DNA of 64,000 nt from an uncultured Fretibacterium sp. (GTDB lineage: Bacteria > Synergistota > Synergistia > Synergistales > Aminobacteriaceae): the NCBI GenBank assembly GCA_947168585.1, contig CAMVMK010000005.1:1-64000 (forward strand). The letters run 5' to 3'. Position 1 is the first letter of the stretch. Each line of letters begins with the position of its first letter. The notes below the pieces were generated by a model. That model had not been told where the DNA came from and did not search any database. It worked only from the letters and a program-made list of their open reading frames with translations. Below, piece after piece: positions 36,556 through 47,001 of this stretch. The translations under genes and the position numbers were made by a program.

Positions 36556-39054
36556 ATGTCTTATAAAGGAAAGGGGATTTTAACTATCATGAAACGAATT
36601 AATATATTCGTTTTGTTATGTATATTGATTTTAACTTTAACTTCGGGAGCGGCTTGGGCTGCTGTCGCAAGTTATAATAATAAATCATATAGTACTTTGC
36701 AGGAGGCGATTAACGATGCCCAAACTCATACTACAGCTAAAATTACACTTATAAATGATATTACTTTAACTGACACGCTTACAATAAGCGATGACTATGA
36801 TAACGCATTAACTATTGACTTAGACGGCTATGATATATCCTGCGGCAGTAGTGCTATACGCGCTTTATGGATTCATGCTGGGAATGTAACGATAACAGGT
36901 TCAGGAACTATATATGCAAAAGGGACAAGCGATAGCAGCAGTGTTATCCGCGTGGGTGCTGCGGCATCTACAAGCGCGGATTTTGCAAGCCTTATTATTG
37001 ATGAAGATGTAATTGTAAGCAGTGATAATTGCTACGGAATTGCCGTTTTTGGTAATAATCTTCCGGCTTCAGAGACAGATACGGCTGATTATTACGGGCA
37101 ATATTTAGAGATTAATGGTACAGTTGCAGTAACGGGCGGTGCTTCAGCAATTTCAGGCAACGGAACTTCAACTCTTTCAGCGAATCGTATTACAATCAAC
37201 GAAAATGCTGAAATCAGTGCTAAGTCAGATACAGGAATTTATCACCCTCAATCAGGCGATATTGTATTTTACGGCGGTACAATCTCCGGGCCTACAGCTC
37301 TCGAACTTAAAGGCGGTAACGCAATAGTTTACGGCGGTGATTTTGCTCCTACCGGAAACACAGCAGATAATAGCGAAAATAACAACGGTAGTTCTTCAAC
37401 AGGTTATGCTATCGCAGCAATCATTAATAATAATTACAAAGGCTCTGCTAACGTTACAATTCATGACGGAACATTTCGCGGCCTCGTTGACATCGCTGAA
37501 GATAGTGAAGAATCTGACGCAGAATATACGCCTACTGTAATAATCGCGGGCGGAACATTTACAAATTCGAGTTATCTTAACGAAGATTATCTTCCTGCAG
37601 GCTATGTTGCTGTTGAAGATACAAATTCATACTACACCGTTTACAGAGACACTACAATTACATCTCTTCCTACAGCCTCAGCAATAAGAGAGGGACTTTC
37701 TTTAGACAACAGCGTACTCTCCGGCGGTACAGTGAAAGCTGTAACAGATTTAGACGATACAACAAGCGTTGACGTTTCAGGAACATGGACATGGATAACG
37801 CCTGCAGTTAAGCCGAAAGTTTCTGACGATAACAAAACAAAATACGGAGTTATTTTCACTCCTGATAATAGTGAAGAAAACGCTAAAATTGTATCTGCCG
37901 AGATAACTATCAGAGTCAACCCTGCAAGCAGCGACACTTCGACAGGCTACGTCAAAGCAGTTTCAGTTGATTCTACAGGTGAACTTAAATATGACGTTCA
38001 GGGGAGCGTACCTCTCTCAACAATTTTGAACAATCCAAACGTTAATTTAGCAGACATCAAGAAAATTTCGATTAACAGTCAAGTATCTTCAATTACAAAT
38101 TCGGATTTATTGAAAGTTAATCTTGATACTCTTGATTTAAGCAGTGCTTCAGGATTATCATCAGGATCAACGCTTAATCTCAGCGGCGTTACAATCGGAA
38201 CTCTTACAATGTCAAGCGGTACTAAAGTAGGAACTTTGACGCTTTCAAGCACGAGCAAAGTCAGCCACATTAACGCAGGCGGCGCGCCTCTCACGACTGT
38301 AAATTTAGCGAGGAACACAACTATTGAAACGCTTAACCTTGAGGGTACAGGTGTAGGCACTCTCAACGCTTCGGGCTGTACAAACCTTAAAACGCTCAAC
38401 GCTTCGGCATGTTCAAACCTTGAGACTCTTGATGTTTCGGGATGCACAAGCCTTGAAACTCTTAACTCAAGTTATTCGGAATTAACGAGCATTAATCTCG
38501 AGGACTGCGACAGTCTTGAAACTCTTGACGTTTCCAACAATGCTTTATTGTTCCTTGACATCAGCGAACTCGACAGTTTAACGACAGGAAGCTGGAGCGG
38601 GCAGGAAAACTATAAATCTTTCAAATCTTACAAGCCCTCAGATAATCAAATTAATTTAGCAAGTTTCATTTTGGCATATGTAAGCAGCGCCACGAGCGCA
38701 GATATTGCCGCAAGAATTACAAGTGTCAAAGAATTTGACTCATCTGACAAAGAAGTCCAACAAGCCGAATATGACTCATCGACCGGCATAGCAACATTCG
38801 GAACGACTCCGACAGGCTATTTAGTTTATTATGTCAATGTTGATGATGTTACAGCTTCCGACTCCGAAGCTAATTTAGCCGCTAATGAAACTTCTATGGA
38901 CGTAACTTTGTATAACAACGAAGCAAGCGGTTCATCATCCGAACCTTCTGTGCTCGGTCCGAGCAACGCGGGCTGTAATTCGTTAGGAATTAGGAGCGTT
39001 CTCTTGTTCCTTGCAATGTTTATATTTGCCTGCGCGAAAACTAAACGCTTGTAA
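36556..39054 (+). CDS. Surface/secreted repeat protein with beta-helix and leucine-rich-like repeats and a GCN Synergist-CTERM-like sorting tail
   Basis: Signal peptide; LETLDVSGCTSLETLNSS..., LNLEGTGVGTLNASGCTNLKTLNASAC repeats; C-term SNAGCNSLGIRSVLLFLAMFIFACAKTKRL. Confidence 0.75.
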   Translation: MSYKGKGILTIMKRINIFVLLCILILTLTSGAAWAAVASYNNKSYSTLQEAINDAQTHTTAKITLINDITLTDTLTISDDYDNALTIDLDGYDISCGSSAIRALWIHAGNVTITGSGTIYAKGTSDSSSVIRVGAAASTSADFASLIIDEDVIVSSDNCYGIAVFGNNLPASETDTADYYGQYLEINGTVAVTGGASAISGNGTSTLSANRITINENAEISAKSDTGIYHPQSGDIVFYGGTISGPTALELKGGNAIVYGGDFAPTGNTADNSENNNGSSSTGYAIAAIINNNYKGSANVTIHDGTFRGLVDIAEDSEESDAEYTPTVIIAGGTFTNSSYLNEDYLPAGYVAVEDTNSYYTVYRDTTITSLPTASAIREGLSLDNSVLSGGTVKAVTDLDDTTSVDVSGTWTWITPAVKPKVSDDNKTKYGVIFTPDNSEENAKIVSAEITIRVNPASSDTSTGYVKAVSVDSTGELKYDVQGSVPLSTILNNPNVNLADIKKISINSQVSSITNSDLLKVNLDTLDLSSASGLSSGSTLNLSGVTIGTLTMSSGTKVGTLTLSSTSKVSHINAGGAPLTTVNLARNTTIETLNLEGTGVGTLNASGCTNLKTLNASACSNLETLDVSGCTSLETLNSSYSELTSINLEDCDSLETLDVSNNALLFLDISELDSLTTGSWSGQENYKSFKSYKPSDNQINLASFILAYVSSATSADIAARITSVKEFDSSDKEVQQAEYDSSTGIATFGTTPTGYLVYYVNVDDVTASDSEANLAANETSMDVTLYNNEASGSSSEPSVLGPSNAGCNSLGIRSVLLFLAMFIFACAKTKRL

Positions 39055-43293: not shown

Positions 43294-43337
43294 ATTTTTT
43301 GATTTCTTGTATAATATTGCAACAGGAGGTATTAAAC

Positions 43338-45048
43338 ATGGAATTAAAGAAAAATTTTTATTTTCCCTTACTTGCGTTTTTAATAATTTTCACAGCGTTA
43401 TTTGCCTGGCTTGGGTTTTATAATTGGCCGCACTCGGGCGATGATTTTAATTTTGCTACGAGGGTTTCGCAAACAGGTTTTTGGGAATTTCAAAAAGATT
43501 TTTTCCTGCATGATAACGGACGGCTTGCTAACGCCTTTTTTCTTAGTCTGTGTGTTTCTTTTCCGTTTATCTCTTCTTATAGATTTTGGGCTTTAATTAC
43601 AATTTTGACTTACGCTATTTGCGTTTGGATTTTTCTCGGAATTTTACCCCCCCCCCCACGAAATCTCACGAAAAAATAAAATCTTACTCACTGTAGTTAT
43701 CTCAGCTTCAACTCTCGCGTCTCTTTATTCACTTAGTGAAACACTATATTGGCTTGCCGGCTCGCCGTATCTTTGGTGCGTATCACTGCATATTCTCTCG
43801 ATGGCTTGGGCTGTGAAAGCTCTGCAAGGTTCAAAGTCTGCATTTTTAGCTTGTCTTATTGTTTTATTTATCAACGGTACTTTAATAGAATTACCATGTA
43901 TTTTTCAGGGCGTATTTGCATTTATTGCTATGATTTATTTTGCTTTCAAACGAGAGAAGAAAAGTGCTTTAATTTGTTGTTCGTTCTGGCTTGTCTCTAT
44001 AGCTGCGTTTTGTTTTTTATATTATGCTCCGAGTACTACCGCAAGGATGGCGAAACATATTCCGAATGATTTTCAAGTTTTTGCGTCTCACTTGAAACGG
44101 ACATTATTAATCGGCAGCATTCAGGGATTTTTGACTACAATAAAATTTTTTGCAACACCAATGACTTATGTCTTTTTAATGTTTCTGCCGTTAATTGCTA
44201 AAAAAATCCCCGTTAAAAATACAAAATTAAAAATTCGGCATGTCGTAATTATAATGTATTTAATCGCTGTTTTAATGCAGGCTGTTCACGGCTGGGGACT
44301 AAGCGGACGGCTTCCTGAACGCGGTGAAACTACAGCATTATTATGTATGGGTATAACTTGGTGCTGGCTGTTGGGACGCTTTTATCGCGGAAAACTCACA
44401 ACTTCAGAAAAATTCGCTGATTTCAGCAGAAAATTTCGTTATCCGGTTTTAATTCTTGCTTTATTAATCAGTTTTAACTTTTGGGAAGTTATAGAAAACT
44501 TAAAAATTGCTCCGGAATATAGAGCAGAGCAAGTTGCGCGGTATGAATATATTCTTGAGCAAAAGAAAGCCGGAGCAGAAAATATAACAGTAACTTTCTT
44601 TGAAAATAGGCCAAGACTTATATTAGGAGATTTATCAACAACGCCGGAATCGGGAAATTTTGCAAAATATTTCGGCATAAAAAGTATTTTGGCAATTCCT
44701 AAAGAATTAAGCGGTGATATCGAAGCTATTAACGAACTTTGGAAAGGCCGTTCAACGCCGTTAATTAAAATCGCAGAGGCAGGCAACACTGATTTTATAT
44801 ATGAATTAGGCTTAAAGAGCGAACCTTTTTTACAACATACTATAAACGCTCTTGGACATTTACCGCACGGGCTCGAAGTCAGTGCAGAGCAGGCTGAAAA
44901 ATGGCAGCGGATGGGAGCTAATTTAGGCGATGCACGCTGTATGTGGCCTTTAGCTCGGTTAATTTTCAATAGAGATAAATCTTTCAAGGGAATTGCTGAA
45001 GCTATTTATTGGGTCGTAAGATATCAGCTTGCAAATATGCGGCTTTAG
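43338..45048 (+). pseudogene. Polytopic membrane protein (DUF6056/GT-C-like), frameshifted at a C11 tract; probably phase-variable
   Basis: SD AGGAGGTATTAAACATG; ORF ends at 43679 just after C11 (43647-43657); the frame used by the 43801-45048 ORF is open from 43660 and reads EISRKNKILLTVVISAST..., joined if one C is lost. Confidence 0.75.
43647..43657 (+). repeat. Homopolymer C11 (simple sequence repeat)
   Basis: TTTTACCCCCCCCCCCACG. Confidence 0.95.
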
Positions 45049-45063
45049 GAGGCGGCTGAAATT

Positions 45064-45987
45064 TTGATTTCGATTTTATGTCCGTGCTACAACGAAGAGG
45101 CCGTTTTAGATTTATTTTTCGAGCGTATTTCTGCTGTAATTGCAAAAATTCCTGAAAAATTTGAATTTATTTGCGTCAATGACGGCAGTAAAGATAAAAC
45201 CCTCGAAATTTTGAAAAATCATGCTGAAAAAGATTCAAGAATTAAAGTCATAGATTTTTCCCGTAATTTCGGCAAAGAAGCTGCTTTGACCGCCGCTCTC
45301 GATTACTGCAAAGGCGATGCCGCTATACCTATTGATGTTGACTTGCAGCAGCCTCCGGAATTAATTTCAAAAATGATTGAAAAATGGCGCGAAGGCTATG
45401 AAGTTGTTGCAGCCCGGCGGGATCGTGCTACGGATTCTTGGCTGAAAAAAATCACTGCTTTAGCCTTTTATAAATTTCAAAATGCTACTTCAAGATATGA
45501 AATTCCTGCTAACGTCGGAGATTTTAGACTTATTGACAGAAAAGTCATAGATGCTCTTAAAAAAATGAAAGAATCTTTGAGATTTATGAAAGGACTTTTT
45601 GCTTGGGCAGGTTTTAGATCCTGCATAATTGATTACAAAGTAGAAAAGCGCATGGCAGGCGAATCTAAGTTCAATTTTTGGAATTTGGTACATTTTGCAA
45701 TAGACGGCTTAACATCGTTCAGCACTGCACCTTTGACGCTTTGGCTATACGTAGGGGGGGGTATCTCAATTTGCGCGTTTGTATACGGATTTTTTATTTT
45801 TATCAGGACTATTTTATTCGGAATTGAACTCCCAGGTTATGCGTCATTGCTTTGTTTGACGCTATTTTTCGGCGGTTCTCAAATGCTCGGCATCGGGATT
45901 TTAGGCGAATACGTCGGGCGGACTTATATCGAGAGTAAACAACGGCCTGTTTATATTATCCGTGAAATTTATGAATCGGAATCGTAA
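45064..45987 (+). CDS. GtrB/DPM1-like polyprenyl-phosphate glycosyltransferase, copy 1
   Basis: ISILCPCYNEEAVLDLFFERI; DVDLQQPPELI; two C-terminal TM; ILGEYVGRTYIESKQRPVYII. Confidence 0.93.
   Translation: MISILCPCYNEEAVLDLFFERISAVIAKIPEKFEFICVNDGSKDKTLEILKNHAEKDSRIKVIDFSRNFGKEAALTAALDYCKGDAAIPIDVDLQQPPELISKMIEKWREGYEVVAARRDRATDSWLKKITALAFYKFQNATSRYEIPANVGDFRLIDRKVIDALKKMKESLRFMKGLFAWAGFRSCIIDYKVEKRMAGESKFNFWNLVHFAIDGLTSFSTAPLTLWLYVGGGISICAFVYGFFIFIRTILFGIELPGYASLLCLTLFFGGSQMLGIGILGEYVGRTYIESKQRPVYIIREIYESES
45754..45761 (+). repeat. Homopolymer G8 within GtrB-like gene
   Basis: TACGTAGGGGGGGGTATCTC, encodes YVGGGIS. Confidence 0.9.
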
Positions 45988-46074: not shown

Positions 46075-47001
46075 ATGATTTCAATTTTATGTCCATGTTA
46101 TAACGAGGAAGCTGTTTTAGATTTGTTTTTTGAAAAAATTTCTGAAGTAACTGCAAAAATTCCTGAAGAATTTGAATTTGTTTGCGTCAATGACGGCAGC
46201 AAAGATAATACTCTCGAAGTTTTGAAAAATCATGCTGAAAAAGATTCGCGGATAAAAATCATTGATTTATCGCGTAACTTCGGCAAGGAAGCTGCTTTGA
46301 CTGCCGCTATAGATTATTGCAAAGGTGATGCTGCTATACCCATTGATGTTGATTTGCAGGATCCGCCGGAATTAATTTCAAAAATGATTGAGAAATGGCG
46401 TGAAGGTTATGAAGTTATATTAGCACGGCGCACAGACCGTTCTTCTGATTCATATCTAAAACGAACAACAGCAAAAATGTTTTACCGTCTGCATAATTTA
46501 ATTTCTAATCCTGAAATTCCTGAAAATGTCGGCGATTTTAGATTAATTGACCGTAAAGTTATTAACGCCCTCAAAGAATTGAAAGAGTCTCATAGATTTA
46601 TGAAGGGTCTTTTTGCGTGGGCGGGCTTCAAAACTTTCACGCTTGATTACAAACGCAACGCAAGAAGTTCAGGGACTTCAAAATTTAACGGCTGGAAACT
46701 TTGGAATTTAGCTATCGAGGGCATAACATCGTTCAGCACCGCACCTTTAACTTTATGGCTTTATCTTGGAGGCGCGATAGCTTTCAGTGCGTTTGCTTAC
46801 GGATTTTGGATATTTATAAGAACTATAATATTCGGGATCGAGCTTCCAGGCTATGCTTCATTAGTATGTTTAATTTTACTTTTCGGCGGCCTTCAATTAT
46901 TAGGAGTTGGAATTTTAGGTGAATATCTCGGCAGAACTTATATCGAGAGCAAGCAAAGACCTGTTTATATTATCCGCGAAATTTATGAATCTGAATCGTA
47001 A
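46075..47001 (+). CDS. GtrB/DPM1-like polyprenyl-phosphate glycosyltransferase, copy 2
   Basis: ISILCPCYNEEAVLDLFFEKI; DVDLQDPPELI; same C-terminal region as copy 1. Confidence 0.93.
   Translation: MISILCPCYNEEAVLDLFFEKISEVTAKIPEEFEFVCVNDGSKDNTLEVLKNHAEKDSRIKIIDLSRNFGKEAALTAAIDYCKGDAAIPIDVDLQDPPELISKMIEKWREGYEVILARRTDRSSDSYLKRTTAKMFYRLHNLISNPEIPENVGDFRLIDRKVINALKELKESHRFMKGLFAWAGFKTFTLDYKRNARSSGTSKFNGWKLWNLAIEGITSFSTAPLTLWLYLGGAIAFSAFAYGFWIFIRTIIFGIELPGYASLVCLILLFGGLQLLGVGILGEYLGRTYIESKQRPVYIIREIYESES

Follow-up and report, generated by a model that had tools for sequence, protein, structure and literature searches.

An uninterrupted tract of 11 C residues in a DUF6056 gene of an uncultured Fretibacterium sp. 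is best explained by phase variation through slippage, a reading that we consider very probable and that makes the gene a putative contingency locus. The tract lies in a window of 64,000 nucleotides (the whole stretch of DNA that was analysed) and is one of about 44 G/C tracts that the genome carries in glycan genes and promoters. The original prediction had described a phase-variable tract at this one position. That reading is now strongly supported by the 44-tract set, its gene content, and the near-random reading frame of its members, and the locus proves to be one of dozens that have a flanking motif in common.

We infer that the switch operates in living cells as follows. Slipped-strand mispairing would alter the length of C11, and the change in length would toggle the DUF6056 GT-C-type enzyme between an intact form of about 569 aa and an early-truncated form reduced to the N-terminal transmembrane region and the first loop, where the Asp-Asp pair lies. 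The adjoining GtrB-like enzymes would supply the polyprenyl-phosphate sugar, the DUF6056 enzyme would add sugar to a surface glycan, and switching would thereby diversify the cell surface.

The tract is found in the context TTTTA-C11-ACGAAATC, within a gene whose start codon at 43338 is preceded by a ribosome-binding site, AGGAGG, seen in the sequence at 43324-43329. The frame that begins at this start codon (frame 0) enters the tract and reaches a stop 22 nt past C11, just where the upstream ORF had been predicted to end. A second frame extends without a stop between 43609 and 45048; it reads EISRKNKILLTVVISAS and runs on into ORF 43801-45048, and this continuity, too, had been anticipated. 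The frames meet at C11 with 134 and 462 open codons and are offset by one base. Therefore, a tract shorter by one base yields a single ORF of about 569 aa, and the earlier arithmetic, in which loss of one C restores a protein of about 570 aa, is right. As to the extent of the gene, the two-frame structure holds, but the downstream half begins at the tract and not at the ATG at 43801, translation starting from 43338. The 462 codons of the downstream half contain no second lesion, and the length of C11 sets the frame of an otherwise intact gene. Five C8 patterns occur in the window compared with 0.10 expected from shuffled sequences, which excludes chance as the origin of the window tracts. The features of the locus and the tracts in promoter spacers are collected in Table 1.

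Table 1. Features of the C11 locus and its neighbourhood (window coordinates), and G/C tracts in promoter spacers of the same genome (locus:position)
Feature	Position	Strand	Basis or remark
C11 homopolymer (G11 on the - strand), putative slippage tract	43647-43657	+	Read in sequence; shuffle test; genome-wide set
N-terminal half of the DUF6056/GT-C-like gene, containing NWPHSGDDFNF	43338-43679	+	Frame and homologue alignment; frame lost just past the tract
C-terminal 462 codons of the same DUF6056 gene	43658-45048	+	Membrane part polytopic, Sel1/TPR-like region at the C-terminus; ORF 43801-45048 of the ORF list
TA flank of C11 (TTTTA-C11; in the G-sense G11-TAAAATT)	43645-43646	+	Borders 43/44 tracts of the genome
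GtrB/PgfS/ArnC-like polyprenyl-phosphate glycosyltransferase (GT2), predicted	45064-45987	+	Family matches
In-frame G8 in the first GtrB-like gene (...LYVGGGIS...), with TA on its 3' side	45754-45761	+	Sequence
Second GtrB/PgfS/ArnC-like GT2, close paralogue without a tract (LYLGGAIA)	46075-47001	+	Sequence and family matches
Poly-G 9-13 in promoter spacers	L030:4042 and 4464, L038:4019, L040:10613, L041:2266, L044:3990, L048:2767, L025:4036

The identity of the gene is established by a Pfam match of the downstream half to DUF6056 (PF19528; 4.2e-13, 49.3 bits against a cut-off of 27) and by full-length homologues, one of which (L010) scores 75.3 bits with the same family. A scan of genome contigs with the single protein returned no relatives, and an alignment-based query returned nine. 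Ten homologous sequences occur in the genus, one being a paralogue within the same genome, and nine of the ten were aligned with the downstream half; the named relatives belong to rumen Synergistaceae and Fretibacterium MAGs. In the full-length homologues (554-578 aa), a part matching ORF 43338-43679 precedes the match to the downstream half. Since these homologues carry both parts, the two ORFs represent one gene of about 570 codons in two frames. The paralogue, at G000:C35, is intact, with a frame of 562 aa and 51% identity. Homologues in three other species (G006, G008, and G022) contain independent tracts of G11-13 at another site, the AVKxLRGG region; the frame is kept in one of them and lost in two. 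The DUF6056 family has gained tracts more than once.

The GT-C-like label proposed earlier finds tentative support in a structure search, with E-values of only 2e-3 or worse. The solved structures best matched by an AlphaFold2 model of homologue L230 are STT3 of OST, PimE, AftA, ArnT, and AftB. Nearly all matches are GT-C enzymes with probabilities of 0.9-1.0, but with E of 2e-3 to 0.05 and TM of 0.2-0.4; the resemblance is thus of moderate quality (pLDDT 73, E 2e-3, TM 0.33-0.38). The acidic motif expected of GT-C enzymes is present as PHSGDDF, the counterpart of the homologue consensus PxPxDDxxF, in what the inferred topology makes the putative first extracytoplasmic loop. In a family profile search, the C-terminus matches Sel1-repeat structures.

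As the original prediction had stated, the gene lies directly upstream of GtrB-like genes. The G8 tract in the first of these is a candidate for a second contingency tract of the same cluster, to judge by its sequence. A complete Gtr cassette, in which a serotype-specific GT-C gene accompanies gtrA and gtrB, is not found here, and no GtrA-like ORF of at least 80 aa exists between 43338 and 47001. Elsewhere in the window, positions 36556-39054 encode a large secreted-looking repeat/LRR-like protein with the C-terminal end SNAGCNSLGIRSVLLFLAMFIFACAKTKRL, which we take to resemble a C-terminal sorting signal of Synergistetes.

The host genome, a MAG of 110 contigs from a Fretibacterium-like member of the rumen Synergistaceae, has 44 G/C tracts that reach 9 bases or more in 2.35 Mb, where the frequencies of short runs predict almost none. 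In a 0.85-Mb sample, C-runs number 8174, 1320, 164, 24, and 7 at n=3-7, and 5, 12, 1, and 5 at n=8-11. Their number drops about three- to eightfold with each added base up to n=7 and does not drop further at 8-11; hence long C tracts form a separate class, to which the tract of the DUF6056 gene belongs. The length distribution of A-runs has no comparable second mode. In 28 of the 44 cases, a long open arm adjoins the tract on either side; 23 of these have G on the coding strand, and the DUF6056 gene of the window is among the five C-sense cases. At least 28 tracts are internal to genes, half or more of them in glycan or methyltransferase genes. Coding tracts are in frame in 9/28 cases in this genome (19 shifted), in 3/15 in G005 (12 shifted), and in 6/17 in G022 (11 shifted). 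Pooled over the three species, 18/60 are in frame (30%), compared with 33% predicted for random length. The out-of-frame genes are open on both sides of the tract.

The proteins linked to tracts are biased in function. Among 30 of them, Pfam identifies two GT2 proteins and a weak third, two GT11, a GT4, an AlgX-like protein, a Glyphos_transf (CDP-glycerol transferase-like) protein, two FkbM, a DUF4422, a sugar epimerase-aminotransferase, and four SAM methyltransferases. The exceptions are a dicarboxylate symporter, an M13 peptidase, a solute-binding protein, an RR-HD protein, and a surface protein. A control set of 18 random genes included one possible surface enzyme, an acyltransferase. Two pairs of tandem paralogues have a tract at the same site in each member, namely L036:568 and 2151 (G9/G9) and L047:4033 and 4935 (G10/G9). 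At L039:4007, a solute-binding protein has an in-frame G9 within its predicted signal peptide (MKKILVSLLLLLSVTWGGVTASAA). In addition, 7 or 8 tracts occur between TTGACA-like -35 and TAAAAT-like -10 hexamers separated by spacers of 15-21, and in most cases a start codon with a ribosome site lies downstream. From their sequence, these spacer tracts are probably phase-variable promoters, candidates for transcriptional switching.

A distinctive characteristic of the set is the dinucleotide TA directly 3' of the tract in the G-sense, which is present at 43 of the 44 tracts. Further out, A is found at +3 and a T-rich stretch at +7 to +9, and TAA follows most tracts. The T-rich flank also occurs at tracts without a -35 hexamer (T fraction at +6 to +10 of 0.54 vs 0.31, sd 0.04). 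Three origins of the TA flank are ruled out: a cause at the protein level, because TA occurs in all three codon phases, in C-sense genes, and in promoters; homology among tract loci, because grouping similar loci still leaves TA at 35 of 36 unrelated groups; and seeding from short TA-flanked runs, because TA adjoins just 3-5% of C3-C5 runs in the 0.85-Mb sample. Generic slippage leaves this near-invariant flank unexplained. The preference for TA is concentrated in the genus. TA follows 306/766 tracts in the other 42 genus genomes and 10/32 in G132 of the same family, and it is rare outside the genus (1/80 in G071, 0/76 in G090). Genomes G071, G090, and G149, from other genera or families of the order, each contain 56-80 tracts of at least C9 with essentially no TA, for which high GC or another kind of tract biology may be responsible. 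In two sister species, unrelated genes have different, likewise significant motifs upstream of their G tracts: AAAATTACTTAC abutting the 5' side of the tract in G022 (loci L192, L201-L229; 9.1 bits per site vs about 4.7 in displaced controls) and GTAATTnTAC 5-8 nt before it in G005 (loci L134-L173; 7.8 bits vs about 4.4). The flank motifs are properties of the DNA and are species-specific.

It is possible, if unlikely, that a sequence-specific process makes or maintains the tracts, a trans-acting factor or replication hot spot reading the flank and slippage playing a partial role. The persistence of TA across unrelated groups, the occurrence of the motif in all codon phases and promoters, and its concentration in the genus agree with such a process, as do leave-one-out motif scores that separate tracts from G4-6 runs with an AUC of 0.98 in this genome, 0.93 in G022, and 0.89 in G005. 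However, neither the motif nor the side of the tract on which it is found is the same from species to species, and second-order selection for slippery contexts could yield the same pattern; moreover, GnT hot spots show flank effects without a dedicated factor (PMC12344412). A stronger version, which we regard as rather doubtful, holds that the G/C tracts of this genus are more than slippage-prone runs. They would be DNA elements whose species-specific flank is recognised by a trans-acting or replication-linked process, and this process would create, extend, or destabilise them and so direct contingency mutation to chosen genes.

A fixed frameshift, that is, a pseudogene broken by chance at a homopolymer, would agree with the out-of-frame assembled copy and with the intact paralogue elsewhere in the genome. 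It is improbable given the 462 downstream codons free of a second lesion, about 19 genes of the genome that are broken at a G/C tract only beside others intact across one, and the homologues of three species with tracts of their own. The length of C11 could also be an error of assembly or sequencing in a fragmented MAG, homopolymers being error-prone in some chemistries, with the true tract one base shorter and the gene constantly on. Even if individual lengths are wrong, such errors cannot produce a surplus of 44 long tracts that are concentrated in glycan genes and promoters and share a flanking motif, nor do they fit the single-mode A-runs, and we judge this reading very improbable. That tract and flank came in together as a mini-element with a poly-G tail is hardly credible. 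Short flanks are alike at unrelated sites within a species, but at both sites examined, those in DUF6056 and GtrB, the proteins match tract-free homologues with one extra residue at most. This leaves no room for an insertion and contradicts the idea at these two sites.

Phase variation by slippage, the preferred explanation, has to be seen in a genome that encodes intact MutS1 and MutL, which rules out loss of mismatch repair as the source of tract instability. Epsilonproteobacteria are mismatch-repair-poor; with both proteins intact here, slippage at 9-11 bases may therefore be slower. The flanking motif is the part of the findings worth following, and it opens a test of whether contingency tracts are defined by length alone or also by a rate-setting cis sequence, and MutS/MutL-proficient cells with many tracts of 9-11 bases are a good setting for that test. 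If the preferred explanation is true, random switching would vary the surface glycans of rumen Synergistaceae, and this would matter for how they interact with phages and with the host.

The papers searched on the sequence context of contingency loci describe no TA or other flanking motif, apart from work on GnT hot spots, where mutation at G runs is set by the dinucleotides on either side (PMC12344412). There, the T 3' of a G run changes to G least when A comes next, and the base at +2 follows a similar order (PMC12344412). T followed by A is thus the coldest T-to-G context, matching the TAA of most tracts described here. By this order, TAA best shields the edge of a tract from substitution, and such protection would favour A after T. 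The effect accounts for that A but not for the near-invariant T itself, and the GnT hot spots concern substitution at G3-5, not indels at G9 and above (PMC12344412).

Several known systems resemble the locus in part. As in GtrA/GtrB/Gtr(type) and PgfS-type cassettes, GtrB/PgfS-like GT2 genes adjoin a polytopic GT-C-like protein. Unlike in the Gtr cassettes, no GtrA-like ORF is adjoining, DUF6056 is not among the described Gtr(type) proteins, and the DUF6056 protein has an additional C-terminal Sel1-like region. In phase-variable promoters of the Neisseria type, a homopolymer lies between -35 and -10, and the arrangement TTGACA-N-G9..13-TAAAAT with spacers of 15-21 in the present genome is similar; it differs in that a TAAAATTT-like flank also borders coding tracts without a -35. 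The closest parallel is with the poly-G/C loci of Campylobacter and Helicobacter, where dozens of tracts per genome lie in surface-glycan genes and promoters and genes are turned on and off by frame, the latter being putative here (PMC8355987, PMC2823697). The differences are a Synergistota host with intact MutS/MutL and tracts that nearly always adjoin TA and an AT-rich motif, a contrast drawn from the flanks of the present genome alone. Searches of the open-access literature found nothing relevant on phase variation in Synergistetes, Synergistota, or Fretibacterium, and large-scale homopolymer phase variation appears to be unreported for Synergistota. The single locus is of a known type; what is new is a genome-wide set with flanking motifs in this phylum.
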